This document shows, piece after piece, positions 21,582 through 64,000 of a stretch of 64,000 bases of DNA. Position 1 is the first letter of the stretch, and the number at the start of each line of letters is the position of its first letter. Origin of the DNA: Urechis unicinctus (lineage: Eukaryota; Annelida; Polychaeta; Xenopneusta; Urechidae). The notes beneath the pieces were generated by a model. The model had not been told where the DNA came from. It was given only the letters and a program-made list of their open reading frames with translations, and did no database searches. Position numbers and translations under genes: made by a program. The stretch covers positions 55,116,230-55,180,229 of the forward strand of contig CM067356.1 in the NCBI GenBank assembly GCA_034190875.2, given 5' to 3'.

Positions 21582-23017
21582 GCATTGCAGAGGAACCGGA
21601 GGAAGGTACCCTGTTCTCCTCAAGTCCTGCATCTAAGTACTACTGGATCAACAAAGAAAGTATGTGCTTAATAGATGGGGTCTTGTACAAGGAAAGGAAG
21701 ACTGTCCAGGAAAAGGACCTGGTGGTCCCCACCAGTCTGAAGGAAGATGTGCTCCATCTACACCATGACATTCCATCTGCGGGCCACCAGGGGGTTGCAC
21801 GGACCAAGGCCAAAGTAAAAGAGAGGTTCCATTGGTTTGGTTTGGCTCAGGATGTGGAAAACTATGTAGCATCCTGTAGCACGTGCAACCAAAACAAGAA
21901 GGCTACCCGCCAAGGGAAGGGCGCAATGCGAGAATACCAAGCAGGCGCGCCTATGGAGCGGGTACACCTCGATTTCCTTGGACCATTGCCGCGTACCTCA
22001 AGGGGGAACGAGTATGTGCTCATGATGGTTGACCAATTTACCAAATGGGTCGAGTGCATACCTCTCCCCTGTCAAACTGCCGAGGTAACAGCAAGAGCGG
22101 CAGTGAATGAGTTCTTCTCCAGGTTTGGATATCCTTTCCAAGTTTTCTCTGACCAGGGGAGAAACTTCGAGTCACGCCTCTTCACTGCATTGTGTGAAGC
22201 TCTCCACATCCATAAGGCACGCACGACACCTTACAGACCATCTGCTAATGGACAAGTGGAGAGATTCAATCGTACGTTAATGGACGCAGTACGCTGTTTC
22301 ATTGGGAAGAACCAACACCAATGGGACATGCATTTGTCGCAGCTGGCCGGTGCACTCAGGGCTTCGGTTAATAGAAGCACAGGTTTTACGGCCAATAAAC
22401 TCATGCTTGGGCGGGAAGTCAATGTACCGGCACACCTAAAGTTCCCTCATCATACAGGAGGAACAGTTGAGGAAGCGGATTACGTCGCCCAGCTAACGAG
22501 TGAGATAGGCCGTGCCCATGATGTCGCCCGGACTAAGCTCCAAACCTCGCTGCGTCGCATGAAACGTAATTACGATGTCCGCTTAATTGAAAGGTCGTAT
22601 AAAAAAGGGGATGTGGTGTATATCCTAGATACGGCCACCTTGAAGGGGAAATGTCGGAAGCTGAGTCCCCCTTGGAAAGGACCTGCGGTCATCGTGAAGC
22701 GCATATCCGACTTTCTATTCAGAGTGCAACTAAAAAATGCCCTCTTCGTCGTCAACCACGACCGCATCAAGCCCTGCAAAGACCGGGACCTGCCAAGGTG
22801 GATTTCCAATTGGCAGAAACAACCGCCAGAGGGTCAAGAAGATGTCAAAGATGACGAAGAGTTGTATTGCATTTGCCACCAACCTTGTCACGGGCGTTTC
22901 ATGATTCAGTGTGACTTTTGTCGTGAATGGTACCACGGCACTTGCGTGAACGTCACGGTGACAGATGCACTTAGTATAGATAAGTACCGGTGTGGGCGCT
23001 GTAAATCACGACATTAG
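21582..23017 (+). CDS. pol: Gypsy-2 integrase with C-terminal PHD finger
   Basis: The frame open from about 21590 has an HHCC zinc region (HHDIPSAGHQG... CSTCNQNK, about 21761-21897). The catalytic core has Asp in HLDFLGPLP (about 21966), Asp in VFSDQGRNF (about 22147) and Glu in NGQVERFNRT (about 22258). A C-terminal SH3-like/GPF region follows (YKKGDVVYILD). The last 55 residues (about 22856-23017) are a PHD finger: YCICHQPCHGRFMIQCDFC, then EWYHGTC and YRCGRC, matching C4HC3. PHD fingers read histone H3 tails, so this may direct integration as chromodomains do in chromoviruses (inference). The first codons up to 21661 are reached only by a frameshift from RNase H. Confidence 0.88.
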
Positions 23018-28054: not shown

Positions 28055-28100
28055 TTTCTAATTGTAGTTGATCACTTGACTTGCGTACTTCAGAATTGAT

Positions 28101-30701: not shown

Positions 30702-31506
30702 TTAGCACCTCCCGTCACTTGTTGCGTCACTGGTTGTCGAAAGATTACCTGCGCAGGTGAGCAAATTCATTTTGTATCAAACCAACGAGTGCTACAGTCG
30801 ATTCTATAAACAAAACTATCAGCAAATTCCAGCTTGTGGTTATAATTCGTTAAAAAGCGAGCGATAATGTTTCATTTAAGCTCTCGAGTGTAGCCCTACA
30901 GTACTAGGCGTGTCAGCCGAACCTCGCGGCAGGCGGCCGCGCTTGTGCCTCAATGTTAATTCCAATTTTTTTCAACTTGCTCTAACTGGCATTTATATTT
31001 AAGATACATGGACGAATGATACATCAAACGAGAGCTAACGTATTGAATTTCAATAATATTGCTTTACTTTTCGCATTTTACCCCGTTTGAGCCATAAAAG
31101 TTGTGTGTTTGTGGAGCAATACGTTAAAATTCTCTGCGAGCATTTTTGACTTTCGAGATTCAGCCCGTTTCGAATTCTCTAAATCGGTTCGCATTCGTTA
31201 CTCGTATCGTTTTTATTGTTTAGTAGATGACAAGATGATATTCTAATGTTTACGATCATATAAAATCTAAAAAAAATGGCCAAAGGGAAAATAATATTAT
31301 TTGCGTACGAAATGTTACGGTGTAAACAAATGTATTTTTTTCCCAATTTCATCAGATGGCCGCGACATATGTACACACTTTTAACAAATTTAAGTATGAT
31401 GTTACAAATGGGTCGCCGCGTGAGCCCGTATCAGGGTCAACTTTGCCTTCACTCAACACGGCTTCGCACTCTCGCAACCACCGCTGAACGTGCTCCGTTA
31501 AACAAA
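30702..31506. other. AT-rich interval without recognised genes
   Basis: Non-coding sequence between ISL2EU and the satellite. Only short chance frames are seen (for example 31276-31575, partly inside the satellite). The last 80 bp before 31507 faintly resembles the end of a 237-bp unit. Confidence 0.5.
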
Positions 31507-33130
31507 GTCGATTTTCCTTCATTTATCAATCCGAGCCCTAATATCCATCTATATACAGGGGTAATTCAAGTATAGTGGAATACTTTGGTCAAGTTTATTT
31601 TCTTATTAAATGGACCGGAATTGTCGTATTTTAGACTTTAAAATGTTTGATTTTGTCATGCCCGAGCTGGGAGAGCGTATAGCATGCCTTCACACGGCCG
31701 ACTCAAGATCGCTTACGCGACTGATCGCTTGGGGTCATACAAAGTCGATTTTCGTTTATTTATCAATCTGAGCCCTAATATCCATCTATATACAGGGGTA
31801 ATTCAAGTATAGTGGAATACTTTGGTCAAGTTTATTTTCTTATTAAATGGACCGGAATTGTCGTATTTTAGATTTTAAAATGTTCGATTTTGTCATTCCC
31901 AAGCCGGGAGAACGTATAGCATGCCTTCACACGGCCGACTCAAGATCGCTTACGCGACTGATCGCCTGGGGTCATACAAAGTCGATTTTCGTTCATTTAT
32001 CAATCTGAGCCCTAATATCCATCTATATACAGGGGTAATTCAAGTATAGTGGAATACTTTGGTCAAGTTTATTTTCTTATTAAATGGACCGGAATTGTCG
32101 TATTTTAGACTTTAAAATGTTCGATTTTGTCATGCCCGAGCCGGGAGAGCGTATAGCAAGCCTTCACACGGCCGACTCAAGATCGCTTACGCTACTGATC
32201 GCCTGGGGTCATACATAGTCGATTTTCGTTCATTTATCAATCTGAGCCCTAATATCCATCTATATACAGGGGTAATTCAAGTATAGTGGAATACTTTGGT
32301 CAAGTTTATTTTCTTATTAAATGGACCGGAATTGTCGTATTTTAGACTTTAAAATGTTCGATTTTGTCATGCCCGAGCCGGGAGAGCGTATAGCATGCCT
32401 TCACACGGCCGACTCAAGATCGCTTACGCGACTGATCGCCTGGGGTCATACATAGTCGATTTTCGTTCATTTATCAATCTGAGCCCTAATATCCATCTAT
32501 ATACAGGGTTAATTCAAGTATAGTGGAATACTTTGGTCAAGTTTATTTTCTTATTAAATGGACCGGAATTGTCGTATTTTAGACTTTAAAATGTTCGATT
32601 TTGTCATGCCCGAGCCGGGAGAGCGTATAGCATGCCTTCACACGGCCGACTCAAGATCGCTTACGCGACTGATCGCTTGGGGTCATACAAAGTCGATTTT
32701 CGTTCATTTTTATCGGGAGAAATCTGAGCCCTAATATCCATCTATATACAGGGTTAATTCAAGTATAGTGGAATACAGGGGTAATTCAAGTTTGGTCAAG
32801 TTTATTTTCTTATTAAATGGACCGGAATTGTCGTATTTTAGACTTTAAAATGTTCGATTTTGTCATGCCCGAGCCGGGAGAGCGTATAGCATGCCTTCAC
32901 ACGGCCGACTCAAGATCGCTTACGCGACTGATCGCTTGGGGTCATACAAAGTCGATTTTCGTTCATTTATCAATCTGAGCCCTAATATCCATCTATATAC
33001 AGGGGTAATTCAAGTATAGTGGAATACTTTGGTCAAGTTTATTTTCTTATTAAATGGACCGGAATTGTCGTATTTTAGACTTTAAAATGTTCGATTTTGT
33101 CATTCCCGCGCCTGGAGAGCGTATAGCTTG
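31507..33130 (+). repeat. 237-bp tandem satellite, about 7 units
   Basis: Unit starts (GTCGATTTTC) at 31507, 31744, 31981, 32218, 32455, 32692 and 32951. The first five periods are exactly 237 bp. The sixth is 259 bp because of small insertions near 32710 and 32776. The last unit is truncated at about 33130. Units are very similar, indicating recent amplification or homogenisation. It contains conserved TATATACAGGGGTAATTC and no long ORF. Confidence 0.95.
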
Positions 33131-34283
33131 CCTTATCAGCATTATGTGATTTAAGAAAACATTCGATTCTTGAACTTAATATGGTACTTAATTTATTTAT
33201 TTGGGGTTGTGGATTCAAAAAACTATCCGTTACAGGCCAGTACCTTCAAAGGCAATATGCCGCTTGCGCTAGCGCGTGGAATTCGGCAGTTAGGGTTCAC
33301 AGAGTAGATGTTGAGCTGCCGACAGTTACTGCGACGTTTGCGCGAGCTGCTCGGTGCCAAGGGCACCACCCAGATTTAACACATCAAAGAGATTCTGTTA
33401 ACCACGTTTTGTGTCAGATTCGTTCACGGAGTACATCCCGAGTATATCATGAGTTCACTCCAGCCTTATATAAGTTGCGTATTGCCACGTCAAAATTCAT
33501 AACCATTGCGGTTAAACAATTCGCATTTGAATCTCTCTCTGGCAAAATTTTTGCGTGAAGACGCGAGTGACCACTGACTTTAAACCATCACTGGTTTAAT
33601 CGAACCATATATCTCTCATAGTTATTTGACGCGGTGTATATATATTTCACCAATCTTATAAAGGGTGTGACAATAAGTTGTACTGCCCTAGTCTGGCCCT
33701 GAGGATTTTTATTGGTCTTGGTAGACCGCTAGGACATTTTATTTGCCTGTTTTTCGTCAAGACAGCTATTGCTGGTAACTATTGGAAAATAGTTGATAAG
33801 CGTATTTTCGTTTGGGAGTTGGTATGCATATCAAGGTAATAATAGATAAGTGGAAAGAGGAGGGGAGGGAGGCAACTTTCAGTTACCTCAAATCCCACCA
33901 GCCAGGTCTTGAGCCCTCTGGCTGTAGCATTTTACGAAAGAGTCTTAATCGAGTAATAGCTCGACACAAGAAGTTAAGCAAGACAATGGTCAGCGCAAAA
34001 GATATTGAACGGTATGAGGGTTTTCTTAACTCAGCGTTCACTTTTCCAGTTGTAAAAGCCCCACCCTCTGTACAAAAGCAGTTTTCTGAACTACATCCTC
34101 ATGTCCAGTGTGGTCATGAGGGGGCAAAGAGGAACGGATAGCTTATCCAGCCAAGGTGGTGTCACAGGTACCAGGGTTCAGCGATTGGTTTAATATTGTA
34201 TATGATGAGGATGATGCTGTGTACACATACCACCGTCTTGACGAGGATATCTCTAAAGGCGATCTTGAGATTTTGGTCACCTG
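33131..34283 (+). other. Interval with two unrecognised ORFs
   Basis: 33181-33558 is open for 125 codons (MVLNLFIWGCGFKKL...) with no domain I know. 33824-34141 (ATG 33824, about 105 codons, MHIKVIIDKWKEEGREATF) has a composition like a real protein, Lys/Arg-rich and helical, with IERYEGFLNSAFTFPV. I do not recognise it. It may be a fragment of a dispersed multi-copy gene. Nothing else is seen. Confidence 0.35.
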
Positions 34284-34872
34284 ATGTTTTAGCATTGTTT
34301 GGCAATTTCAGACAGGTGTCTGGTTGCAATAGTTTAAGCCTTGTTTGGCAATTTCAGACAGGTGTCTGGTTGCAATAGTTTAAGCCTTGTTTGGCAATTT
34401 CAAACAGGTGTCTGGTTGCAATAGTTAAAGCCTTGTTTGGCAATTTCAGACAGGTGTCTGGTTGCAATAGTTTAAGCCTTGTTTCGCAATTTCATACAGG
34501 TGTCTGGTTGCAATAGGTTAGCATTATTTGGCAGTTTCAGACAGGTGTCTGGTTGCAATAGTTTAGTATTGTTTGGCAATTTCAGACAGGTGTCTGGTTG
34601 CAATAAATTAGAATTGTCTTGCAATGTCAGACAGGTGTCTGGTTGCAAAAGTTTAAGCCTTGTTTGGCAATTTCAGACAGGTGTCTGGTTGCAATAGTTA
34701 AAGCCTTGTTTGGCAATTTCAGACAGGTGTCTGGTTGCAATAGTTTAAGCCTTGTTTGGCAATTTCAGACAGGTGTCTGGTTGCAATAGATTAGCATTGT
34801 TTCGCAATTTCAGACAGGTGTCTGGTTGCAATTGTATAAGCATTGTTTGGCAATTTTAGACAGGTATCTGGA
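34284..34872 (+). repeat. 46-bp minisatellite, about 12-13 units
   Basis: Period is exactly 46 bp in the first units (34301, 34347, 34393...). Each unit carries TTTGGCAATTTCAGACAGG and TGTCTGGTTGCAATAG. CAGACAGGTGTCTG is a 6-bp inverted repeat around GG, so every unit can form a small hairpin. Units vary by point changes and the final one is degraded. Confidence 0.93.
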
Positions 34873-35825: not shown

Positions 35826-35890
35826 AATTGGTGGAGAATTCGCGGTTTGACCACTTTCAAGCTGGTCATCACATCGATTCATCGACTCAT

Positions 35891-36838
35891 ATGCCAGTAA
35901 CCCGCTCCCAGGAAACCGCAACAATGACTCAAATACCAAATATTCAGCCGCCTCGTTTTGCAAAAGGACGGGCAGGTGAGTGGTTTGAAACGCTTAAACT
36001 TTACTCGCAATCAAACAAATGGAGCGATGAACAAATTGTTGGCTACATTCCCTGCTTATTGGACAACCCCGCTCGCTCCTGGTACCATACGCTACCCAAT
36101 ACAGTGAAAACCAATGCGAAATCACTTCAAGAGGCATTCATAGACAGGTTTGACTCAGTCGATGGGTTGCGCCATACCCATATAGAACAATTCAAAAATC
36201 GTAAACTGCAACCAGGTGAAACCCTTGACGATTTCCTCGACGACGTCAGAAAATTTGGCAAACAATTGGACAAATCGGAAATAGATGTGCTTGACGCATT
36301 TATTTATGGCCTTCCTGACTCCATAAAACCCCTAGTGCTACAACACGAGCCTAAATCCATCGAAAGTGCTCTGCGCCACGCCCGCTTGTGCATCTCAACC
36401 TCAACCTCGCAGCTATCTCCTCCAGTGATCCACAACGATTCGAAAATACTTCATGCAGTCGAAACCCTCATGAACAAATTTCAGCAATTGGAACAGAGAG
36501 TAAACGTGGCAAGCGCCCCTCCTCATCGACCATCGCCACAGAAATACCGGAACCCCAATGAGTATGCGCGGTACCAAGGTCAGTCAGGGTTTGCATGTAA
36601 CAGATGTGATAGCAATAATCACCAGTCTCATGAATGTCGTTTTAGCAATGTTCAATGTCGCTATTGTAATCGCACCGGCCACATTGAGAGAGCCTGTCGA
36701 ATTAAGCAGCAGCACCTAACTCATTCGCCACGTCTTCGATATCCGTCCCCCCACGCCTCAAATACCTCTGGCCCCGCATCGTCATTTCCCACATCCTACC
36801 GTCCCACGAATAGATCCACCCGTCCCCAACCCCGCTAG
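35891..36838 (+). CDS. gag: Gypsy-3 Gag (315 aa)
   Basis: ATG at 35891 (MPVTRSQETATM) is the first Met in a frame open from the primer site. A retrotransposon-gag capsid domain spans roughly residues 15-175 (FAKGRAGEWFETLKLYS, RSWYHTLP, GETLDDFLDDVRKFG). Two CCHC knuckles lie near residues 235-285 (CNRCDSNNHQSHEC and CRYCNRTGHIERAC). It ends at TAG 36836-36838 and the following protease frame is in the same phase. The context is like retroviral stop-codon readthrough. Confidence 0.85.
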   Translation: MPVTRSQETATMTQIPNIQPPRFAKGRAGEWFETLKLYSQSNKWSDEQIVGYIPCLLDNPARSWYHTLPNTVKTNAKSLQEAFIDRFDSVDGLRHTHIEQFKNRKLQPGETLDDFLDDVRKFGKQLDKSEIDVLDAFIYGLPDSIKPLVLQHEPKSIESALRHARLCISTSTSQLSPPVIHNDSKILHAVETLMNKFQQLEQRVNVASAPPHRPSPQKYRNPNEYARYQGQSGFACNRCDSNNHQSHECRFSNVQCRYCNRTGHIERACRIKQQHLTHSPRLRYPSPHASNTSGPASSFPTSYRPTNRSTRPQPR

Positions 36839-37426
36839 GATTCAGCGCCTGTCTCAAGGGTGCAAGCAACTAACTCTGGGGATGGGCATCAAAATGTAGT
36901 TTCAAGGAAAACTAAAAATTACACAAATGGGAATACTGACAAATTTCAACAATCAATGACAAATATCAAAGTTGGCGCTGACATCAACAAACGTAGTCTC
37001 CCAAGGACTAAACAAGTCAATAATCCTTCTAAGTGTTCAGTGAATAACATGCCAACTTGTGTAATTGCACCTCAATCAGCACATACAGATGCCTCCTTAA
37101 ACCATTCTCCAATTCTCTCATCTGACAAACCTTTGATCCATATTCCTTCACTCTCCGCGACCACGCTCGAAATTGATTTGACCGGAAATCTTGTTCAAGT
37201 ATCAATGGGTAATAGCAAGGCCCAGGCTTTACTAGACACAGGCGCATCTGTGTCATGTATATCTCCTAAAACTCTCTCTTCCATTCATCAGCAGAATACA
37301 GTTACGTCATGTGATCTATCATCTGTTACAGGTGTCGGAGGACATTTAATCTCTGTTTTAGAAAAAATTTTCCCTCAATTTTCATGTTGGGTCATTGCCA
37401 GTTCAACATACTTTCTATGTGCTTGA
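36839..37426 (+). CDS. pro: Gypsy-3 protease, first half
   Basis: In phase with gag beyond the TAG. A Ser/Thr/Asn-rich spacer is followed by the retropepsin motif AQALLDTGASVSCIS at about 37220-37262. Near 37362 (A6T4 run) the homology passes to the next frame, where LPVQHTFYVLE and IILGMDFFQ complete the protease. The trailing residues to 37426 in this frame are off-register. A one-base insertion in the homopolymer is the simplest explanation. Confidence 0.75.
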   Translation, partial: DSAPVSRVQATNSGDGHQNVVSRKTKNYTNGNTDKFQQSMTNIKVGADINKRSLPRTKQVNNPSKCSVNNMPTCVIAPQSAHTDASLNHSPILSSDKPLIHIPSLSATTLEIDLTGNLVQVSMGNSKAQALLDTGASVSCISPKTLSSIHQQNTVTSCDLSSVTGVGGHLISVLEKIFPQFSCWVIASSTYFLCA

Positions 37427-39743
37427 GGAAATGAACTTACCCATTATATTAGGCATGGACTTCTTCCAATCTCAAAAAGCTACCATTTGCTTTGCTAGCA
37501 GTAAATTGAAATTGAAAAATGGGCAAGTATCTGTTAAAATGATTGGTGTGCCTGATTCGTGTGTCATGAAATCGGTTAACAATTGTATCATTCCGCCCAG
37601 AAGTGAATCACTTGTGTCTGTAGCTACAACCAACGTCACCCTACCTAACCACCCGTATCTGGTGCAGCCTTTAAAGTGCTTACCCGCCAAAACAGGCCTA
37701 GTAGGTGCTACTTCCGTTACGACAACAAACAAAGGCTTAACCAACTTAAGGCTTTTTAATCCTCACTTCAATGTCATTAACATAAAAGCTGGTCAGCGAG
37801 TAGCTTCTCTTACTAAGCTCCAAGGTGATGAAATACACGCATGGAAGTCCCAAGAGAGTATTAATAGTCTTCAATCTAGTGGGTCAGCTAGCCAATCAGA
37901 CAACAAGTTCATTGCAACGGCAAAAGCATTGGGCTTTGTGGACTCCAATCCCAACCTTACACCTGAGCAAAACAGGGAACTACTCATTTTGTTGGGAAAG
38001 AACCGAGACGTTTTCGCGGCTAATTTAAGAGAATTGGGGTCAACGCACATTCATCACCATCACATAGACACCGGTACAGCCAGTCCCATTAGATTACCCC
38101 CATACCGCGTGTGTCCTGAAAAGAAAGCAGAAATAGAAAGGCAGATAGAAGTAATGGAAGACGCGGACCTTATAGAGCAGTCAGTTTCTCCTTGGCAGGC
38201 CCCTGTCGTGCTAGTTAAGAAAAAGAGCGGAGAGTTTCGTTTCGCCGTCGACTATCGCAAATTGAATCAAGTCACCAAGCCACTCCACCAACCCTTACCC
38301 CATATTGAAGACGTATTTGACTCCATTGGCCAAAATAAGGCAACCCTATTTTCTACACTGGATTGCGCAAGTGGATTTTGGCAAATACCTCTTGACAAGA
38401 AAACGGCACATAAAACCGCGTTCGTTACCCATCAAGGTGTCTACCAATTCAAACGTCTTCCATTCGGGATGATGAATTCCCCAAGTGTTTTTGCAATGGT
38501 AATGAATCATGTTTTGCGAAACTTATCTACAAAATACGCAATGGTGTATGTAGATGACATTCTTGTGTTCAGTAATGAATTTTCCCAACATATGCAGCAT
38601 CTCGCGGACATTTTCTCTAGGTTGCGACAAGCAAACATCCGCCTCAAACCAGAGAAATGTAAATTCGCCATGCCTAAAGTTGGCTATCTTGGACACATGA
38701 TTTCCGGTTCAGGAGTAGAAATGGAAAAGGCTAAACTTGCCAAAGTCCAAAATTATCCCTGTCCGAAAAATCTCAAAGGTGTTCGTGCATTCTTAGGGTT
38801 ATGCAATTACTACAGACTGTTCGTTAAAGGCTTTGCAGACATCGCTAGACCTCTTAATGAGCTAATGAACAAGGATGTCCCATTTCGATGGACTGACAAT
38901 TGTCAAAATGCTTTTCAGACGCTGAAAAATCGACTGACTTCTGACCCAATAGTGTTGAAATTTCCTGATTATGACCGACAATTCATTTTGTACACTGACG
39001 CGTCTGATTACGCTATCGGGTACATACTCGGACAAAAAGACAGTGACGACAAGGAACACGTTATTGCGTACGCTGGTAGATCGCTCTCAAAAACGGAACA
39101 ACATTGGCCTGTCCACGAGAAGGAATGTTTGGCTGTCATTGAAGGCATACGTCATTTTCGAATGTATTTAGAAGGCCGTCAAAAGTTTTTGATCCTAACG
39201 GACCACAAAGGCCTAGAATACCTAAAAGACGCCAACGCCAAACAAAACAAATCACCTAAACTTCTCAGGTGGAGTATTGAGCTTCAGGGTTTTAATTGTG
39301 ACATTGTCTACAGGGCTGGAAAAAATAATGGAAATGCCGATGCTTTGTCCAGAATAGAACATGTTTACGACATAACTTACAAAACCCCACTTACAAAGCA
39401 GCTAGCTGCTCATAGTATCAATGCTCTATCCCACCTTGCTGACAGTCAAATTACTTACAATGAGACCGACCCCGTCACGTTGATTTGTCAACTCACCGCG
39501 GCCACTCCTAAATCCCTAGCGGATTATCAACAGCAAGATGATCATTTCGGCCCAATTTACGATTACTTGCGTAACCGAAAAATCCTTCCTGCTGACAAAC
39601 AAGAGGCTCACAGAGTAGTTGTTGAGTCGTTTGACTGTAGTTTAGAAGATGACTTACTGTATCACCATTACGCCCCAAGGGGAAAGGGTAGAAAAATCGA
39701 TCGCTTAGTCAAGCAGCTAGCAGTACCCAGCGCGCCTGCGTGA
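37363..39743 (+). CDS. pol: Gypsy-3 reverse transcriptase and RNase H
   Basis: A long frame (ATG 37395, but homology starts in the protease just upstream). Reverse transcriptase blocks are RFAVDYRKLNQVTKPLHQP, FSTLDCASGFWQIPL and catalytic YVDD at 38547-38558. RNase H has FILYTDASDYAIG at about 38981 and DHKGLEYL. The tail NGNADALSRIEHV leads to the integrase N-terminus. The frame ends at TGA 39741-39743 after a one-base break near 39733. Confidence 0.9.
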
Positions 39744-40188
39744 TGACGTATTACGTTCGTACCACGACTCGCTGGCTGGCGGCGGCCATCAAGGCGAAGA
39801 ACGTTGTTTGGAAGCTATACGGCTCAAGTATTTCTGGCCGAATATGGCATCGGACATCAAACTCTATGTTAAATCGTGCCTCGCGTGCCAACAATCGAAA
39901 CGGCATGTCCACGCTCGGCCCGCGCCCCTTCACCCTTTTCCACCCGATGAGATATTTTCAAGATGGCATATGGATATATTAGGACCTACAAGTAAAGCTC
40001 AAGATGGAAGTCAGTACATTTTGTTGTTTGTCGACTCGTTCAGTAAGTGGTGCGAGGCTTTTCCTTTGAAAACTCAAACAGCTGCGGAGATCGCGAAACA
40101 CTTGTATAATGACATCATTTGTCGGTACGGCGCCCCAAGAAAACTCGTATCTGATCGCGGCAAAAAATTTTATGTCCAATATCATTAA
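39734..40188 (+). CDS. pol: Gypsy-3 integrase, zinc region and first catalytic Asp
   Basis: One frame over, it reads SYHDSLAGGGHQGEE and SCLACQQSK, completing the HHCC zinc motif. RWHMDILGPTS carries the first Asp of the DDE triad, and LVSDRGK near 40150 the second. The frame is lost at the A6T4 run 40162-40171 and ends at TAA 40188. Confidence 0.83.
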
Positions 40189-41260
40189 GGAACTTTGCAA
40201 ACTGTTTCAAATTGTCAAAGTGGAAACCAGCAGCTACCACCCACAAAGTAACAGCACTTGTGAGCGAATGAATAGCGTCATAGGTGCCTCGTTACGAGCC
40301 TATGTGAATGAGAACCACTCTGATTGGCCAGATATACTTCCAAGTATAATGATGTCTTATAGAGCATATCCATCCACTCAGTCAACACTACAGTCCCCGT
40401 TCTTCCTCCTTTTTGGGACACAGTGTAATTTGCCAATTGATACGGCACTACTTCCCCCACTCAGTCTACCAAAATCGACTGAGCAACATATGACATCAGT
40501 CCACAACCGCCTCAAAATGGCCCGTTCATTAGTAAAGGACAATCAACTTGCTGCACAACAGAAAAGCAGAAAAAGTCACGACCGTAAAGCACGCAATCCA
40601 CCTTACCAAGTGGGACAGCGTGTGTGGCTTCATTGCCCCAAAACACCCAAAGGGATATCAGCAAAGTTAGTCAAACGATGGATCGGGCCTTTCTATATTT
40701 GTCATCAATCTGACAACCATACCTACCAATTAGCTCGTTGCGGCACACATCGACTTATGCGCTCAAGGATCCATGCTAACAGATTGAAACCTTACAATGA
40801 TCCCGCCGACAGACTCACCAACCCACAACCAAGTGATAACTTAGAAGTAAATTTGCCAAATAACATAACTCAATCACAAACTGTGACATTCCCAAAATCT
40901 CAACAAACACCCGACAACCAATCCACGCAAAACCAGTCTACAGAACACAACGCGATTGACCCAGACCTGAATGACGTAATGACTTCCCCATTATCCCAAC
41001 AGTTCAACGGAAAATCCGACATTACCTTCAATGATCCAATATTCAAACAAATAGACAAATTGCTCAGAAAACGCAAAAATAAAAACGGTCAAATCATCTA
41101 CAAGGTCAAGTGGAAAGGACCAATGGCGTCGAGCTGGGAATTAGCTTCATTTATACCTCAAAACCTTATAGAGCAATTCCATATACACAAAACGAGTCTA
41201 GGGCGAGCTAGAAAAAGAAAAAAAACCAAAGCCAGCCAAATTGTTTCTTCATTTGTCTAA
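40165..41260 (+). CDS. pol: Gypsy-3 integrase C-terminal half with chromodomain
   Basis: Resumes after the A6T4 break. The catalytic Glu lies in STCERMNSVIG (about 40255-40287). A GPF-like region follows (QRVWLHCPKTPKG, WIGPFYICHQ) and a Gln/Asn/Thr-rich linker. A terminal chromodomain spans about 41040-41180 (RKRKNKNGQIIYKVKWKGP, then SSWELASFIPQNLIEQF), and the end is basic. Chromodomains direct integration to marked chromatin in chromoviruses. The stop is followed by a run of about 28 C. Confidence 0.87.
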
Positions 41261-54612: not shown

Positions 54613-55494
54613 GAAGTTGGTTGGTTGTGCTACCTATCATATATCTTATTTTATCGTTGATGAACTGCGCTTATCAGGGGCCGTATTCATAAAAAATCTT
54701 AACTTGACTCGTCTGATTCTGCGATCTCAGATTGCATTCATAAAGACCAACGACTGAGTTCCAGTCGACCCAACGGCAATTTTTTTTGGTTTGAATACAG
54801 CTGAGACAGCCAACTCAGCTTATATACCCTTTCAAAAACCTGACTTTATGAATACCTGATCTATAGCTTGTTGATAATTGTGCGGACAAAAAACGGAGAC
54901 AAACAAGCTTGCTTTTGATGTTTGGCAAAGTCGCTAGAAAGTAATGAACCCAGAGAGAGTGCAAAAACTGTCTCGACACCCGGGCACATGATAAGGCGAA
55001 TTCAACTCACCCCAAATCGTTTTCAGTTGCCATTTGCGGGCGGGGGACCACCCCTGATATACCTACTTTTACTTATAAAATCTCATATTGGACCTACTGA
55101 AACAAAAATGTATTATGGGAGCCCCTAAGCTGGTCATTATTTTGTACAATACATCCATTGAGCTACCCCTATATTTATTCACTATTCCACTTCAATCTTT
55201 ATAACTATTTAAGAAACATTTAAACGTTAAGCCGAAAATCTCACTTTGGGCCCACTGTAACCAACTATCTGGGAGGGGAACCTCAAAGATAACTCTTGTC
55301 TTGTCACTAGGCTACCCAAAACTGTATTCAGTATACCCCCATCAGCGTTATAACTATCTAGAACCATTTAGTGGAAGTTATGTATACTGAGTTAACATTG
55401 GGTAAAAAATCAATGCTTTGGACTCAATAAACTGTTCATGCTTTACCTTATTGGTTGTGCTTGTCTCATATATGGTTAATGAACAGCATGGTCT
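54613..55494. other. Interval without recognised gene
   Basis: 54922-55128 is a 68-codon chance frame. About 55316-55400 is similar in inverse orientation to 56075-56150, so it forms diverged inverted arms around the following microsatellite. Nothing else. Confidence 0.45.
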
Positions 55495-55616
55495 GCATAC
55501 ATACATAACATACATACATAAATTATATTACATACATACATAACACACATTACATGCATGCATGCATGCATGTATGTAATGTATGTACACTACACACATG
55601 CATGCATGCATACATA

Positions 55617-55664
<48 letters not shown>

Positions 55665-55740
55665 TACATACATACATACATACATACATACATACATACA
55701 TACATACATACATACATACATACATACATACATACATACA

Positions 55741-55772
<32 letters not shown>

Positions 55773-55814
55773 CATACATACATACATACATACATACATA
55801 CATACATACATACA

Positions 55815-55848
<34 letters not shown>
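55495..55848. repeat. Compound (CATA)n / (CA)n / (CATG)n microsatellite
   Basis: (CATA)n at 55495-55545, (CATG)n near 55553, (CA)n at about 55620-55661 and a long (CATA)n at 55662-55843. All six frames are open in parts, giving Tyr/Ile/His/Thr or Met/Cys/Val ORFs that are not genes. Confidence 0.95.
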
Positions 55849-56584
55849 CATTATGGAATGGACTGCCCAAATTGAGAAATTCTCATATCCCGACACTGCA
55901 ATGTACATAATATGGACTAAGTGGTTTTGGGTAGTTATTTGGTCGATGGGGGTATACTGAATGCACCTAGGTATAGGCCAAGGGTTGTAGATTAGTGAAT
56001 CAGAAGACCTAGGGTGGGTTCCTTCCAAGTTTTGGACTTATGGAATGCCCAAATTGCGAAATTCTAATATCCCGACACTGCAATGTACATAATATGGACT
56101 AAGTGGTTTTGGGTAGTTATTTGGTCGATGGGGCTATACTGAATGGGGTTCCCTTCCCAGCTCTTTTGTTTTCTGGGCCAAAATATGTTATTATAGGCCT
56201 AATGTTTACTTAATATACATAATTTCCACTAAATGGTTCTAGATAAAATTTAACTTGATGTGTTATTGTGGAAAAGCTCACTTGAGGGGATTTCTGATGA
56301 CCAACGATGCTTGATTATAGTTTATTTTCGATGTTAGAACTGAAATACAATATATTATACTCGCCTTTAGTGGATTAATCTGTCTAAATAAGCTTTAAAT
56401 CCTATATTTGGTTGCAGCCGAGCGATTATCTGATCAGTGATTACATGCTAAAGTTATTTGACGCTTAGCTGTGTCAGAAATATCTCGTCCCGTTGGGTTC
56501 TTATTTGTTCTACTATTTTGCGCCAACTTCACACCGGTGGCGAACCGACTTCCTGAGCCAGTTTGAGATATCTATAATACGAAA
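55849..56584. other. Direct duplication and upstream region of the next gene
   Basis: 55853-55961 and 56040-56145 are near-identical (ATCCCGACACTGCAATGTAC... GGTCGATGGGG). The 400 bp before 56585 has no ORF. It is the presumptive promoter and 5' UTR of the spliced gene at 56585; no TATA box is evident. Confidence 0.5.
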
Positions 56585-58954
56585 ATGAATATGGCCACAT
56601 ATTCACAAGGAGCCGAGATGCTATTAGATATGCTTTCAGATGATGAAATCGATTCTCTGGTAAAAACTGTGTTTACACCCCTTACGATGCCTCCGCTGCT
56701 CAATCGACAAGGTAATTCCGCTACGTTAAACTAGCCCAACAGACCAACAGTCGATCGGGTACTTGTTGGTTCTAACACTTAGATGAATGTTTGTTGCAGA
56801 ACAACATGCGGCCATTATTAACCACTCAACTGTGGGTGGTCTACTGAATCGGCGAAAAATAAACAAAGCTCTATTATTTCATTACTTGAGGAAGGAAGGG
56901 GTGTATGTCAATCTTCCAGCAACGAAGTATGAACTTATTCAAAGAATACATCAACATTGGCAGTCTGCTCTAGTGGGACAAGTGAAGGTAATGTCATGTC
57001 ACATGTTTGCTGATTTACTGATCAGTAACTTGATTCAAGTTTTGAAAAACCAAGAACAAATTACCGGTTAGTATTTAACTCTCACGAGTAAGTGATGGCA
57101 TGGTTAATACAGTTCACGCTCTCCACCCAGATGCAGTCCAGCATATCCCCTCCCACCCCATACCAAACTTCAATCAATGATGGTCCGGTAAGTATTTATC
57201 GCTTTCACGAGCAAGTGATGGCATGGTAAATAAAGTTTAAAACGTCGCCTTTACGCTGTATGGTTCACACTCTTGAATATAATTGGAATTTGTGAACAAG
57301 GTTTTAATGAACTTTTGTGGATGCTTTATTTTCAGCTGCCTCTTCATACACAATGTACAGTAAAGTCAACCCCAGTGGCCAACATCTCCACCCAGATGCA
57401 GACCAGCATATCCCCATACCAAACTTCAATCAATGATGGTCCGGTAAGTATTTATCGCTTTCACGAGCAAGTGATGGCATGGTAAATAAAGTTTAAAACG
57501 TCGCCTTTACGCTGTATGGTTCACACTCTTGAATATAATTGGAATTTGTGAACAAGGTTTTAATGAACTTTTGTGGATGCTTTATTTTCAGCCGCCTCTT
57601 CATACACAATATACAGTGGCCAACCTCTCCACCCAGATGCAGACCAGCATATCCCCATACCAAACTTCAATCAATGATGGTCCGGTAAGTATTTATCGCT
57701 TTCACGAGCAAGTGATGGCATGGTAAATAAAGTTTAAAACGTCGCCTTTACGCTGTATGGTTCACACTCTTGAATATAATTGGAATTTGTGAACAAGGTT
57801 TTAATGAACTTTTGTGGATGCTTTATTTTCAGCCGCCTCTTCATACACAATATACAGTGGCCAACCTCTCCACCCAGATGCAGACCAGCATATCCCATAC
57901 ATACCAAACTTCAATCAATGATGGTCCGGTAAGTATTTATCGCTTTCACGAGCAAGTGATGGCATGGTAAATAAAGTTTAAAACGTCGCCTTTACGCTGT
58001 ATGGTTCACACTCTTGAATATAATTGGAATTTGTGAACAAGGTTTTAATGAACTTTTGTGGATGCTTTATTTTCAGCCGCCTCTTCATACACAATATACA
58101 GTGGCCAACCTCTCCACCCAGATGCAGACCAGCATATCCCCATACCAAACTTCAATCAATGATGGTCCGGTAAGTATTTATCGCTTTCACGAGCAAGTGA
58201 TGGCATGGTAAATAAAGTTTAAAACGTCGCCTTTACGCTGTATGGTTCACACTCTTGAATATAATTGGAATTTGTGAACAAGGTTTTAATGAACTTTTGT
58301 GGATGCTTTATTTTTTCAGCCGCCTCTTCATACACAATATACAGTGGCCAACCTCTCCACCCAGATGCAGACCAGCATATCCCCATACCAAACTTCAATC
58401 AATGATGGTCCGGTAAGTATTTATCGCTTTCACGAGCAAGTGATGGCATGGTAAATAAAGTTTAAAACGTCGCCTTTACGCTGTATGGTTCACACTCTTG
58501 AATATAATTGGAATTTGTGAACAAGGTTTTAATGAACTTTTGTGGATGCTTTATTTTCAGCCGCCTCTTCATACACAATATACATTTATCGTGGCCAACC
58601 TCTCCACCCAGATGCAGACCAGCATCATCTTCCCATACCAAACTTCAATCAATGATGGTCCGGTAAGTATTTATCGCTTTCACGAGCAAGTGATGGCATG
58701 GTAAATAAAGTTTAAAACGTCGCCTTTACGCTGTATGGTTCACACTCTTGAATATAATTGGAATTTGTGAACAAGGTTTTAATGAACTTTTGTGGATGCT
58801 TTATTTTCAGCTGCCTCTTCATACACAATGTACAGTGGCCAACCTCTCCACCCAGATGCAGACCAGCATATCCCCTCCCACTCCATACCTAACTTCAATC
58901 AATGGTATATATATATATATACATATACTAAATTGGATCATTTGCTTCATTTAG
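56585..58954 (+). CDS. Spliced gene, C3orf38/DUF4518-like N-terminus plus repeated exons
   Basis: Exon 1, 56585-56711: MNMATYSQGAEMLLDMLSDD... ends CAA G|GTAATT. Exon 2, 56800-56987: acceptor TTGTTGCAG restores the codon GAA, then HAAIINHSTVGGLLNRRKIN, ALLFHYLRKEGVYV and YELIQRIHQHW, ending AAG|GTAATG. The pattern of a LL-RRK... FxYL... G-V helical block resembles the N-terminal part of C3orf38 homologues (DUF4518), whose function is poorly known; this call is from memory of the pattern. Then come eight tandem exon copies (57113-58951). The last lacks the donor and runs to TAG 58952-58954. All joins are phase 0 from exon 2 onward. Predicted length is about 340 residues. Alternatively exon 2 reads through to the stop at 57071. 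Confidence 0.6.
57113..58904 (+). repeat. Tandem exon-intron array, 8 copies, period about 241-256 bp
   Basis: Exon copies (acceptor TTTATTTTCAG, donor GGTCCG|GTAAGT): 57113-57187 (75 bp, shortened), 57336-57443 (108), 57592-57684 (93), 57833-57928 (96), 58077-58169 (93), 58320-58412 (93), 58561-58662 (102) and 58811 onward (terminal). All complete copies are multiples of three. Introns between them are 148 bp, once 150. The encoded unit is about 31 residues: HTQYTVANLSTQMQTSI, then PYQTSINDGP. Confidence 0.9.
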
Positions 58955-59202
58955 GGCAGGTCCAATGTTGTTAGTGTTTGATAAAGATCCTGTTTACCAA
59001 GGCAACATTCAATGTGAAAGTGAGGAGCATGATGGACGAGAGTAGTAATTCGTTTACGTTGGTTTGTTGTTGAGCATGGTGTTTTTGTTGTGTATAATAT
59101 GTTCTTCCCCATGTGTCAATATGTTTTTCATTCTGTGTATGTCAAGTGATTGATTTTGGCATGTGTTTGTTGGTATTATATTCTGCAGGTCATGGGTAAC
59201 AC

Positions 59203-59208
59203 AATAAA
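59203..59208 (+). promoter_or_regulatory. Poly(A) signal AATAAA
   Basis: AATAAA about 250 bp after the predicted stop at 58954, followed by T-rich and G/T-rich sequence (GTTGTTGTACATTTCTTTTG). It is the likely 3' end of the repeated-exon gene. Confidence 0.5.
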
Positions 59209-59257
59209 ATATTTGTAAACTCACATCAAGTTGTTGTACATTTCTTTTGGCTGGCTG

Positions 59258-59335
59258 AATTTTTTCTGGGCCGGTGGATTTTGGGAGCTACCAGCCCGAA
59301 TGGCCGGTGGCAAATTTTCTTAGTTTCATGCCCTG
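59258..59335 (-). repeat. hAT-like right end (inverted copy of 54114-54200)
   Basis: The reverse complement reads CAGGGCATGAAACTAAGAAA, then TTTGCCACCGGCCATTCGGG and CTGGTAGC, aligning with 54114-54165 at roughly 70-75%. Flanking bases do not match those at the left end. Confidence 0.5.
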
Positions 59336-60301
59336 CATTGCGTCACAGTCTCACACAAAAATAAAAAGAGTAATTATGTGAGCGAAGCCGGTCATTCCTC
59401 AGTAATGTTTTGTCATAAATGGGACAAGCAATACAGGAAAAGTAAATAATAGCCAGCATAAATAATTATGGTTATTTGTTCATTTACATATCGAACAATG
59501 AGTGTTCTACATTTTATTAATACAAATTATCTACTTGGCCCATGATTTTGGAGGTTGGATATGAAAAAAAATCATGTTTCAGATGGGACACATATGAGAC
59601 CACATAAGTAGGTGTGAGTAATCAGAACAAAAACTGCATTTGATTTCACTTTGAGTGCATCTTGTTTTTTGTCCACTGTTGATTAAAATGCAGTGTGTAC
59701 TAACATTATGATGAACTAGATTTTTTTTATAACTAACGAATAAAACAGTCAATGCATTTTTATATATATATTTGTAGAGAAAAAAACTGAACAAATGACA
59801 TTTTGTGCCCGCTTAATACTTTCTTAACGACTATTGCCAGACAGACCTCCATAGGCAGTCATAGAGTAGAACAAATTATTACCTGCTATGCAGTGTCTAA
59901 ATTTGTAGTTAAAATTTATTTATTAAGACCTTCAAGCTTGTCAAGATCTCTTGAATCGACTTTGTAATGCTTATAGAGTGTTTAAAATGGTATTTCCCAC
60001 TAGCATATAGCTGGGGCACTCCTCCCTCCTCAGCCAGAACATGGAATATGTAGGGGATACTGGGGTAAGCAACTGTGTTCTACTGCCCTCAGAAATGACA
60101 CTTTCCGCTCAGCCTTCAAGATCTCCTCCACCTGTCCTACTAAGAAACCAGTGACAGGCCAACACAGGAGCTGGACCGACAAAAAGTATAGATGCTGTTG
60201 GTAACAGGAATATTCTCCGCAAATTATATTGGGGCTGCATCTTCCTCTGGTTTCTCAGTCTTCTGTAGCACCATGGTCTGAGGCATATTGTCAGGACAGA
60301 T
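59336..60301. other. Interval, mostly non-coding; SGNH upstream remnants at the end
   Basis: AT-rich to about 59980. From about 60000 coding-like GC returns. Short runs around 60200-60300 may be decayed sequence preceding the SGNH block. No intact gene. Confidence 0.4.
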
Positions 60302-60619
60302 ATAGCTGACACCCTGTTACTGAACCACAGCGTCAAGCATGTCATCGTTTGCTCAATTCTTCACCGCACTAACAACACCGGAACCAACTCGACAGACACA
60401 TTCAATGCATTGGTTGACAAATCCAACCACTACCTCCAGCAGTTTATTAGTGTCCATCCAAATGCCACATATCACACACACAGGGATTTCTGGGCTGCCT
60501 CAGTGCAACAATGGTCTCGAGACGGTGTCCACCCAAACACTTCCATCGGCAGAACCAAATACAAAACTTCCATCCGGAGAGCAATTTTCAGAATTGTCGG
60601 AACTGCCGTGCCAAAATAA
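60302..60619 (+). pseudogene. SGNH-hydrolase C-terminal half
   Basis: Open frame reading ADTLLLNHSVKHVIVCSILH, then NALVDKSNHYLQQFISVHP and FWAASVQQWSRDGVHPNTSI followed by GRTKYKTSIRRAIF. DGVHPN is the D-x-x-H catalytic block V of SGNH/GDSL esterases. The N-terminal catalytic blocks are absent here but present on the opposite strand at 61393-61680. The frame runs into the minisatellite at 60601. Confidence 0.6.
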
Positions 60620-60835
60620 TACAATGGGCAACTGCCGTGCCAACAAAAATAATGGGCAACTGCCGTGCCAAATATGATACAATGGGCAACTGCCGTGCCA
60701 ATAAAAACAATGTGCAGCTGCCGTGCCAAATACAATAAAATGGGCAACTGCCGTGCAAGATAGATAACATGGGCAACTGCCGTGCTAAATATAATACAAT
60801 GGGCAACTGCAGTGCAAAATAAATACATTGGGCAA
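60601..60835 (+). repeat. Minisatellite with TGCCGTGCC core, about 8 units
   Basis: Irregular 28-34 bp units such as CAATGGGCAACTGCCGTGCC plus AAATATAATA. It starts within the SGNH fragment (GGAACTGCCGTGCCAAAATA). Confidence 0.85.
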
Positions 60836-61076
60836 GATAGTAGGACGGTCAAGCAATGCTAGAGAGATATTGACTGTTGGTGTAGACTGTAAAGATTGAA
60901 ACCGTGTGTAGGAGTGCGCGACCTATTAGAAAGGTAACATTTTATAAATGGCTCTTTTTTCGCCCTATAGATTTGGGGTTTTCCTTGAAGAAGTTGCTTG
61001 AAGTAGCGGTTACAGTTGTTGACTATCGTTTGGGGGGGGGGAGGCACTTAATGGTATAGAGGTAGTACATATGTGC

Positions 61077-61262
61077 CGCGCGACGGGGTATGTTTTTTCG
61101 GCCTCTTGACTTGTACGACGGGTTTTTTGGCCTCATACTTGTACGACGGGGTATGTTTTTCAGCTTCAATCTGTACGAGGGGTTATACATTCGCATAATA
61201 CCTTGTACGACGGGGTATGCTTTTGGCCATTTTGACCTTGTACGACGGGTACGGGTTTTCGA
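61077..61262 (+). repeat. Degenerate minisatellite with TTGTACGACGGGGTATG core
   Basis: About five units of 35-45 bp (CTTGTACGACGGGGTATG, CTGTACGAGGGGTTATAC, CTTGTACGACGGGTACGG). It is surrounded by poly-G/poly-C (61029-61040 and 61302-61312). Confidence 0.75.
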
Positions 61263-61392
61263 GGTCCCGCGGCACACCCCTATCCAGAATAAGGCCAAGT
61301 GCCCCCCCCCCGGGCATTGTGCCTGTATAAAATGGAACATATTGCGACATGTTTGACATGGTGGTCTGCTAGAAGGGTTTTGGCCTTGTCAG

Positions 61393-61680
61393 TTAAGCAG
61401 CGGCTAAATCATTTGAGCCAAGATCAATAATAACAAAATCAGTATTAAGATCAAGTAACAGGGCAGAAAGTAGAGTAAATTCAGTGGCTTGCAGGCCCCT
61501 GGTGCCAGCTAATGTGACGCTGTGGACCTTGTCGCTGACGCTGAGCTGAAAAGAAAAATTCTGTGGAAGTGATTGGCTGCTAGGTTGATTTCTGATGTGG
61601 TCGCTGAGATCAGACACAAAGCTGTGTCCCAGGATCAGACCAACTGGTTTCATGTTAAGTGATAGATTATACTGGTGCAA
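61393..61680 (-). pseudogene. SGNH-hydrolase N-terminal half (opposite strand)
   Basis: 95 codons on the minus strand: PVGLILGHSFVSDLSDHI with GHSF as the GDS-like block I, then VTLAGTRGLQATEF (block II Gly) and DFVIIDLGSNDLAA (GxND block III). It stops just where the C-terminal half would begin. The complementary half is on the plus strand at 60302-60619, so the two appear separated by an inversion. Confidence 0.62.
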
Positions 61681-61689
61681 GAGAAAAAG

Positions 61690-62259
61690 TTAAATGAGGG
61701 AATGAGCGGGTGCTGAACTTTGAAAATAAAACACATCGCAATTGTGACAAAGGTGAATTGATTTACAAAAAACCTAACAATGAATCCTGCGAGTGAAAAC
61801 GCGGAATCGAAAAGCGATAAGGAGAAATGTGAATAAAATCACCTGATCGGGTTATATGATGACTGGAGGAATGGTTGGTTGCAACTTGATATGTTGACGA
61901 GGTTGAGATTGAAAAACGGTGTTGCGGAGTGAGGTAGAAAACTGGTAGTACGATGTTCGGAACAGAGCCTCTTCCCTTCCAAGGAGGAAAGATAAGGACT
62001 TAAGCGATAACGTTTACAAATTCGACTCTGCACAAAATGCGGCCCCAACCTATGTTATGATAAGTAGAAAAGAAGAATGACAAATATAAGATTTTATTTT
62101 GTTTTGTGTTTAGCAAAAAAGCTCTTTTGTCCAAATTGTCACATACGGTAATGTTCATGAACAAATTGCATAAAAAATTTGAAAATTGCGATAAAAAGCT
62201 AAAATTTTCACCACCAATCAAAGGTCTGAAAAGCGAAAATACTGTGCTTCTTTAGTCAA
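61690..62259. other. Interval without recognised gene
   Basis: AT-rich; only short chance frames. Confidence 0.5.
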
Positions 62260-62338
62260 GGTCCCCTAGCCTGATGGCTGCGGGCGCTGTTTACATGTTA
62301 CTGATATTCAATAGTCTCGCCTTCAGGTCTAGGGGACC
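62260..62338. repeat. 79-bp hairpin element
   Basis: GGTCCCCTAG at 62260-62269 is inverted at 62329-62338 (CTAGGGGACC), and pairing extends to CCTGA/TCAGG with one gap. It is probably a small foldback or MITE; no target duplication was found. Confidence 0.55.
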
Positions 62339-63328
62339 ATAGTAGATTGAACTGGACGGGCATCCCAGATTTGGGATGCTCCAATCACAAGCCGTGTCTC
62401 TCGGTCACTCTCGGTTCTTTTGAGTCGTTGTCTCTCATTGGTCTATTCTACAAGTTCCGAAGAACTTGTCCAACCGGCCGAGTGATTTTTATGAGCCGGG
62501 CACACATTCTACAACACTCCGATTTGTTGTTTCACGCTGAGTGGCACCGTTTATCACACAGTGGACGAGGAAGCAGACACACAGCTGGTTCTTTTTAACT
62601 GACTATCACGTAAACATACTATCGTGCAGCTACGCCATAAAAGCGCTGGTTGTAGTTCCAATTTGAACTTTTGAGACGCCGATAGTTCCAGAAGTCCTTC
62701 AATGTGTTCTCATTGGATGCAGACCACTACAATGTCCATGACGTCACATGGAACCGAAGGGTGCGTATCACAAGCCAGTTTCATGAGCCAGGCGCAATTA
62801 AGGTCAATCCGGGTCACAACCTTTGTGTTGATTGGTCACGAAGATCAACGAACGTGTCTAATGAATATTCGGACGCGCCACTTTTAGACCTTGTCTGGCC
62901 GTAGACTCTAGGGCGAGAAGCGTAGCGGAACCCCTAGAGTCTGGGACGCAGACTAGTGCTTCTTGGATATCATTATTAGTCCTAGTTGTGAACTTCAAAC
63001 CCATGATTTTCACTAGTAAAGTAATGTTAAGCTTCCAGTTATATGGATAGGTATCCCACACATATAATGCTTGTGTTAGCAGAGCAGTCATGGTTTTGAT
63101 CTTAAAAGCTAAAATCTTATTACTTACTTAACTTACCTATGTTTTCTTAGACCTGTTGATACAGGTATGTTTAAACAGTAAACTACACATAACAAGATTT
63201 GGTCATTGCAATTTCTTGATGAAATATTATTATTGTCATCATGTCTGTGCCTCTAATTGATACGGATTGTCCATCAGGCGAATACAATGTGTTAAAATAA
63301 GCCAACATCCTGGAGATAATATATGTGC
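62339..63328. other. Interval with a second small inverted repeat, no gene
   Basis: AGACTCTAGGG at 62904-62914 pairs with CCCTAGAGTCT at about 62931-62941. CTAGGGG also occurs in the hairpin at 62260, so both could belong to one decayed foldback family. The short frames at 62347-62904 have no recognised domain. Confidence 0.45.
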
Positions 63329-63372
<44 letters not shown>

Positions 63373-63452
63373 GTATGTACACACACACACATATATATAT
63401 ATGTATATATATTGATATATATATATATAAAATATACATATTTATATATATG

Positions 63453-63483
<31 letters not shown>

Positions 63484-63514
63484 GTATATACATATATATA
63501 TGTATATATATATA

Positions 63515-63598
<84 letters not shown>

Positions 63599-63603
63599 TA
63601 TAT
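63329..63603. repeat. (TA)n-rich microsatellite
   Basis: Imperfect (TA)n with TTTATA and GTATA interruptions and a small (CA)n at 63380-63390. ORFs here are artefacts. Confidence 0.95.
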
Positions 63604-63607
63604 CTAT

Positions 63608-63775
63608 ATAGGAATTACTTAGGCGTAACTTAATTAGTCAATCACAGCACGGGAATTAGTTGCGCGCAACTAAATCAGCCAATCACAGCACAGAAATTAG
63701 TTGTGCGCAACTTAATCAGCCAATCACAGAACTGGAATTAGTTGCGCGCAACTTAATCAGCCAATCACACAACAG
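63608..63775 (+). promoter_or_regulatory. Four tandem 43-bp units with CCAAT box and 18-bp palindrome
   Basis: Each unit has a palindrome near TTAGTTGCGCGCAACTAA (perfect in the second unit) followed by CAGCCAATCACA, an inverted ATTGG/CCAAT box. Four units lie head to tail. GGCTCGCTTCTAAG|GTAATG at about 63839-63857 downstream could be a first-exon donor. It may be the promoter of a gene beyond the window or a minisatellite that happens to hold CCAAT. Confidence 0.5.
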
Positions 63776-64000
63776 GAATAAGTTGACATTTGGGGTGGAT
63801 ATCATTACCGGCTTGTTTTAAGTATCATCTCTCAACGAGGCTCGCTTCTAAGGTAATGCTGTGGATACAGGGAACTCCCTTGTCTCATTATGGGTTCAAT
63901 TCGTTATTTTCATGCTCTTGACTCATCAGCTACAGCCAAAATGCCTGTACATTGTATTAAACGGACACGATACCATGTTAATATAATTAAATTTGGTCAA
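63776..64000 (+). other. Right edge, possible 5' exon of an off-window gene
   Basis: No ORF above 60 codons. A possible donor (AAG|GTAATG) lies near 63852. Nothing firm. Confidence 0.3.

Follow-up and report, generated by a model that had tools for sequence, protein, structure and literature searches.

The window, by which we mean the whole stretch of 64,000 nucleotides analysed here, contains an array of eight exon-like copies interleaved with seven introns (57113-58904, contig C15), which we think is probably part of a young chimeric gene. Such a gene would have arisen when a duplicated DUF4518 gene recombined within its intron 2 and the acquired piece was then amplified in tandem, with introns that have remained uniform and exons that diverge in frame. 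The array itself is real and well defined, its origin was unexpected, and it resembles kinds that are already known. It is built as follows:

57064-57114, plus strand: remnant of the array/donor intron, degenerate and truncated, 84% (aligned 57067-57114), left edge of the array
57113-57187, plus strand: copy 0, 75 bp, weak acceptor with a stronger alternative at 57131, right part like the end of donor exon A
57188-57335, plus strand: array intron 1, 148 bp
57336-57443, plus strand: copy 1, 108 bp, insertion of 15 bp
57444-57591, plus strand: array intron 2, 148 bp
57592-57684, plus strand: copy 2, 93 bp, the consensus
57685-57832, plus strand: array intron 3, 148 bp
57833-57928, plus strand: copy 3, 96 bp, net +3 bp
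57929-58076, plus strand: array intron 4, 148 bp
58077-58169, plus strand: copy 4, 93 bp, same sequence as copy 2
58170-58319, plus strand: array intron 5, 150 bp, two T more in the acceptor tract
58320-58412, plus strand: copy 5, 93 bp, same sequence as copy 2
58413-58560, plus strand: array intron 6, 148 bp
58561-58662, plus strand: copy 6, 102 bp, +6 bp and net +3 bp
58663-58810, plus strand: array intron 7, 148 bp
58811-58904, plus strand: copy 7, cut off before the usual donor, with either a TAG (58952-58954) or the cryptic donor ATG/GTATAT to follow

An initial annotation had described an eightfold array with a whole exon plus intron as its unit, exon lengths in multiples of three, and introns of 148 bp with one of 150 bp, and this description holds. 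Copies 0-6 are 75, 108, 93, 96, 93, 93 and 102 bp long, each divisible by three, and the introns measure in order 148, 148, 148, 148, 150, 148 and 148 bp; six of the seven are identical letter for letter, and the odd one has two extra T in its acceptor tract. TRF independently detects the array (57373-58875, period 241 bp, 97% matches). The extent first given, 57113-58954, has to be shortened, since the array proper stops at 58904 and transposon sequence begins at 58906. The splice sites had been regarded as intact, which is true for the donors of copies 0-6, all CCG/GTAAGT, but not for the acceptor of copy 0 and the donor of copy 7. Scored with splice-site weights, the array donors are at the 99.6th percentile and the acceptors at the 96th or above among the GT/AG sites of the window, with the exception of the copy 0 acceptor AATACAG, which only reaches the 65th percentile and sits in the degenerate copy of the repeat intron. 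With the same weights it is outscored by CACCCAG/ATG at 57131, an acceptor that would likewise be in frame. In copy 7 the donor GGTCCG/GTAAGT is gone, and the copy has 94 bp up to the cryptic donor or else runs to the in-frame TAG.

The internal copies are predicted from the sequence to be symmetrical (phase 0-0) and open, and any subset of them would keep the frame, as had been proposed for every pattern of inclusion or skipping. The repeat protein is matched by all eight copies without internal stops, in one common open frame. The open frame by itself is however weak evidence: 37% of shuffled versions of the consensus exon (93 bp) also lack a stop in frame 0, and the unshuffled single exon can be read through in a second frame too. 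The symmetry of the internal copies, together with exons that vary while the introns do not, could also suggest a generator of isoforms, where, as in schistosome micro-exon genes, exons are included in variable number or combination and selection is for a diverse protein. Between copies with identical introns, three of which also share the exon sequence, there would be little basis for a choice, and we find this explanation very unlikely. Two other candidates for the nature of the intron were rejected. A structured RNA is disfavoured by the folding of the intron, which is no better than that of shuffled sequences (z -0.81), and by the lack of Rfam matches, both in the window at gathering scores and in 57100-57600 at E up to 1. 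An introner element, whose intron would be scattered over many genes, is contradicted by the matches of the 148-bp intron, which are confined to the array, its degenerate edge and a gene on C17 (best 40 of 62 candidates scored).

This proline-rich gene on C17, found when the genome (1.19 Gb, 926 contigs) was searched, has an intron of exactly 148 bp that is 93.2% identical to the array intron and aligns without gaps over 148/148 positions. Among the best candidates scored it is the only exon-intron-exon DNA match outside the array, and it possesses strong splice sites and an open frame. The intron is flanked by an exon A that ends in PYATSNPYAP and a short exon B, PPPPTQYT; the array exons end in PYQTSINDGP and begin with PPLHTQYT, in the same reading frame as the C17 exons. 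As the array exons thus match first exon B and then exon A, the unit can be read as exon A end, intron and exon B repeated head to tail, and on these matches the repeat unit of the array is derived from the exon end, intron and short exon of the C17 gene. Searching the genome with the repeat protein gave 13 matches, and only the eight array copies were below E 0.05. No Pfam family matches the C17 gene piece above the cut-off, and for the 39-bp middle of the array exon no source was found in the 30 kb around the C17 gene. One 148-bp intron, recently amplified or homogenized, accounts for the fixed length in the array; in the donor this intron is just as long.

The edges of the array hold traces of how the first repeat might have formed. 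Copy 0 is similar to the end of exon A, though weakly in its left 45 bp (shuffle P 0.014), and copies 0 and 7 share a 9-bp stretch that is absent from the interior copies. From this we infer that the left part of copy 7 and the right part of copy 0, joined at CCCC, gave the interior sequence around the junction; under such a join copies 2-6 are two substitutions away from the left part of copy 7, and copy 1 has none at those sites. In copy 6 the insertion TTTATC with its flanks (58584-58591) is identical to the intron 8-mer ATTTATCG (57194-57201), with a chance of 0.013, and this 8-bp match hints at template switching as a possible source of the insertion.

Upstream of the array lies the part that comes from the second parent:

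56585-56711, plus strand: exon 1 of the spliced model, start of DUF4518 (C3orf38 family), begins with ATG and ends in phase 1, homologous to exon 1 of the C13 gene
56800-56987, plus strand: exon 2, continues DUF4518 as far as position 97 of the 271 in the profile, phase-0 donor as in the C13 gene
56988-57035, plus strand: start of DUF4518 intron 2, homologous (blastn) to the intron of the C13 copies

These exons, the C17 origin of the unit and the transposon from 58906 are all missing from the initial annotation. In the spliced model exons 1 and 2 are in frame with the array, and the model matches PF15008 with 56.1 bits (E 4.3e-15, profile 5-97 of 271), above the cut-off of 27 bits; exon 2 by itself gives 42.4 bits. 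A genome-wide search with the profile gave seven matches. A complete gene on C13 has three exons that cover profile positions 2-38, 38-98 and 102-270, and the remaining matches are two in a partial C13 copy, exon 2 of the window, and one on C16 that is below the cut-off, as are both matches to exon 1 on C13. The partial copy (C13:76338413-76342836), about 27 kb downstream of the complete gene, consists of exons 1 and 2 without a match to exon 3, which is therefore missing in two of the three DUF4518 copies found in the genome.

The window copy shares the exon 1/2 boundary, the phase-0 exit and the beginning of intron 2 with the C13 gene. The similarity in intron 2 ends at 57020 (against C13a) or 57035 (against C13b), and hence the window copy is without exon 3. 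Profile positions 102-270 are, among the seven genomic matches, present on C13 only. Downstream, 32 of the 35 plus-strand stop-free pieces of at least 36 aa in 59046-64000 were searched without any Pfam match at E up to 0.1, and no DUF4518 exon 3 was recognised by eye among the ORFs of at least 80 aa in the twenty kb beyond the window. By its shared boundaries and intron, the DUF4518 locus of the window is a diverged duplicate of a C13-type gene that retains exons 1-2 and lacks exon 3. Searches of the protein collection gave no match for the spliced model at E up to 10 among 7993 candidates scored, and none for residues 1-110 at E up to 1 among 22 candidates; nor was there any match in PDB at E up to 1. 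The Pfam scan of the spliced model gave DUF4518 above the cut-off and a single match below it, and no spidroin domain.

The chain of events that we consider probable begins with a duplicate of the DUF4518 gene that retained its first two exons and the beginning of intron 2. An illegitimate join within intron 2 would most likely have brought in the exon-intron module of the proline-rich gene, that is the end of exon A, the 148-bp intron and the short exon B, and splicing from exon 2 into the array would then give a translatable product. In the tandem unit exon B would be joined to the exon A end that follows it, and each unit would hold a single symmetrical exon of phase 0. The first tandem copy may have come about through microhomology and the remaining ones through unequal exchange, which would both have multiplied the unit and still hold the introns uniform; recent expansion and exchange would explain why the introns are identical. 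The exons, in turn, would diverge rapidly in the residues they encode; insertions have entered at two sites, and the net indels are in frame.

The last step concerns the 3' end, where a transposon fragment ends the array. Transposons are found on both sides of the locus:

54636-56539, plus strand: fragments of a dispersed transposon in which 182-bp units are repeated in tandem internally, right end CACACCGGTG, delimited by genomic matches with aligned ends
58906-59335, plus strand: right part of a dispersed DNA transposon, its last 430 bp, entered at an internal (TA)n, 89% to copy L006

The left transposon has at least 75 genomic matches including that in the window (best 40 of 1149 candidates scored), and its right end CACACCGGTG lies 45 bp upstream of the exon 1 ATG, which weighs against the chimeric gene. 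The right transposon is represented by at least 39 of the 42 genomic matches listed, with 85-96% over 46-50 bp. All six fetched copies (L003-L008) share this part through to the final motif, which is TTAGTTTCATGCCCTG or close to it. The element is about 1.0-1.5 kb long with an internal (TA)n and ends like CAGGGCTCGAAACTAA and TTAGTTTCATGCCCTG, both of which were found in five of the six copies, and from the end motif we take it to be hAT-like. It is at the junction with this transposon that copy 7 loses its usual donor. Copy 7 may read through to the TAG at 58952-58954, or may be spliced from ATG/GTATAT to 58960, and the transposon would perhaps supply both a stop and a poly(A) signal. The candidate terminal exon (58960-59045) and an AATAAA at 59203 lie within the transposon; being transposon sequence, this candidate was rejected as an ordinary last exon with its intron, and may at most be an exonized end.

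Other elements were noticed in the surroundings. Long ORFs at 2684-6562, 16576-23017 and 35828-41260 look by eye like polyproteins of Ty3/gypsy-type retroelements, and a 516-aa ORF on the minus strand (26507-28057) has the look of a THAP-domain transposase derivative. There are tandem arrays at 31502-33134 (237 bp, 6.8 copies) and 34286-34871 (46 bp, 12.8 copies). Just beyond the window, ORFs resembling a Polinton-like large DNA element (L020 4228-8675 and L021 785-4794) include, by eye, a packaging ATPase, a capsid-like protein and a DNA polymerase B-like protein.

Since the array runs into the interior of a transposon at the internal (TA)n, and animal Pack-TIRs with captured exons and chimeric transcripts have been reported (PMC8277862), it could be argued that both gene pieces were gathered inside a DNA transposon, a Pack-TIR or similar, and then moved here. 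The left half of the right transposon (L006 as query) is however unmatched in the window, and its end motif is absent upstream in the window at up to three mismatches. The left neighbour belongs to a different family, and the array with its DUF4518 exons has no second near-identical place in the genome among the best candidates. We therefore hold a transposon-borne capture to be most improbable.

Exon indels in multiples of three with intact splice sites had first been taken as a sign of purifying selection on a repeated protein module, as opposed to a neutral satellite, and this is the part of the earlier reading that is not supported. The events are few and were counted by hand. Among the array copies there are five indels (9, 15, 3, 6 and 3 bp net), all multiples of three, as had been noted before; the probability (1/3)^5 is 0.004. 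The 15- and 6-bp insertions are at one shared codon boundary, and the 9-, 3- and 3-bp indels are clustered within about 10 bp. The indels in the DUF4518 exons are also all multiples of three, 3/3 in the protein alignment or 4/4 internal ones in the DNA alignment, with the lineage not polarised. After the formation of the array, seven events fell in exons and one in introns (P = 0.004 with 585 exon bp or 0.012 with 754 bp), and with the edge copies included the ratio is 11:1 (P = 0.0005). By codon reading, five of the six substitutions among the copies are nonsynonymous, which does not speak for a conserved module either.

The comparison with the C17 gene gives a similar picture. Exon differences are 12/55 for the edge copies and 10/55 for the interior, against 10/148 in the intron (P 0.004 for the edge copies), and over 54 bp dN is 0.22-0.28, dS 0.07 and the intron value 0.07, the branch on which these differences arose not being polarised. 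The excess of dN is significant in Fisher tests (P 0.006 for an interior copy, 0.0007 for the edge copies), and falls to P 0.27 and 0.04, respectively, if one four-codon block is removed. For the DUF4518 exons, the window copy has dS 0.46 and dN 0.45 against C13a (dN/dS 0.98) and dS 0.45 and dN 0.48 against C13b (1.07), compared with dS 0.26 and dN 0.12 between C13a and C13b, and the N:S ratio is higher on the window branch (P 0.03, from rounded branch estimates). Their 105 codons are free of stops despite about 53-85 substitutions, which has a neutral probability of 0.08-0.20 and is not significant. Because the introns are more conserved than the exons and dN/dS in the DUF4518 exons is around 1, a value that also fits loss of function, purifying selection is unsupported.

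The same figures can be put forward for the main rival explanation, a decaying pseudogene, in which the locus would be debris that is not translated. In transposon-rich DNA a DUF4518 duplicate, itself truncated, would have come to adjoin a piece of another gene, this piece would have become a young satellite by unequal exchange, and the exon features inherited from the donor would be decaying. The DUF4518 dN/dS, the missing exon 3, transposons on both sides, the weak copy 0 acceptor and the lost copy 7 donor all agree with this; the donor has strong splice sites and an open frame, from which those of the array could stem, and the stop-free state of the DUF4518 exons is within neutral expectation. 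Neutral decay would on the other hand predict about equal numbers of events per base in exons and introns, where we counted 7:1 in exons. The counted coding indels are multiples of three in 8/8 or 9/9 cases, with the net +3 changes of copies 3 and 6 looking composite by eye, and no copy has a stop. We regard debris as a possible but rather doubtful explanation of the locus.

Returning to the chimeric gene, the frame seems to be kept while the amino acids change fast and the introns are nearly static, and a constraint on the frame of the array exons is supported by the indels. The exon differences may reflect fast evolution under selection, or mutation-prone repeats that are purged of frame shifts. 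A bolder idea is that the identical introns serve as recombination tracks along which exon variants keep arising and being reshuffled; positive selection would then diversify the exons in number and sequence, with splicing and frame fixed. This would make the array a self-renewing protein-diversification cassette outside the silk genes; we consider both the mechanism and this role unlikely.

Both parents of the putative chimera are present in the same genome, the intron donor 7% diverged and the DUF4518 parent more distant, and this makes the steps of gene birth directly readable: duplication, exon loss, gain of a foreign exon-intron module, amplification, and a 3' end made by a transposon. 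The locus is also a caution that constant intron length and exons in multiples of three need not imply purifying selection, as the introns here are the conserved part. Should it prove to be expressed and to vary from one individual to another, the locus would offer a testable example of a coding repeat in which each unit brings along an intron.

Among the papers listed in a literature search none described such a structure, which is not proof of absence, and it is best understood by comparison with systems that share some of its features. Chimeric genes can form by intronic recombination (exon shuffling), and the likeness here is that two unrelated genes are joined in introns with matching phases; the difference is that the acquired unit has also been amplified eightfold. 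The likeness to C3orf38/DUF4518 (PF15008) genes is in the N-terminal region, the exon 1/2 boundary and the phase-0 exit of exon 2, whereas exon 3 (profile 102-270) is here replaced by the array. Micro-exons are limited to about 36 bp, and the array exons of 75-108 bp are too long and are moreover repeats of one another. Features in common with the schistosome micro-exon genes (PMC4350168) are the symmetrical exons and the fast evolution of the encoded protein. Animal Pack-TIRs have gene pieces beside DNA transposons and give chimeric transcripts (PMC8277862); gene pieces adjoin DNA transposon sequence here too, but within the window no single TIR family is found on both sides. In the repeats there is a resemblance to the spidroin genes of spider silk, with repeated exons parted by short near-identical introns. 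In Argiope MaSp2 and, as cited there, in flagelliform silk genes, the repeated introns are near-identical within a gene, 97.6% on average, for which unequal crossing over and gene conversion are discussed (PMC9779670). The putative gene described here has far fewer units, a DUF4518 N-terminus and no silk domain that we could find, and its introns, six of seven identical and all so save for a 2-bp indel, are shared with another gene.
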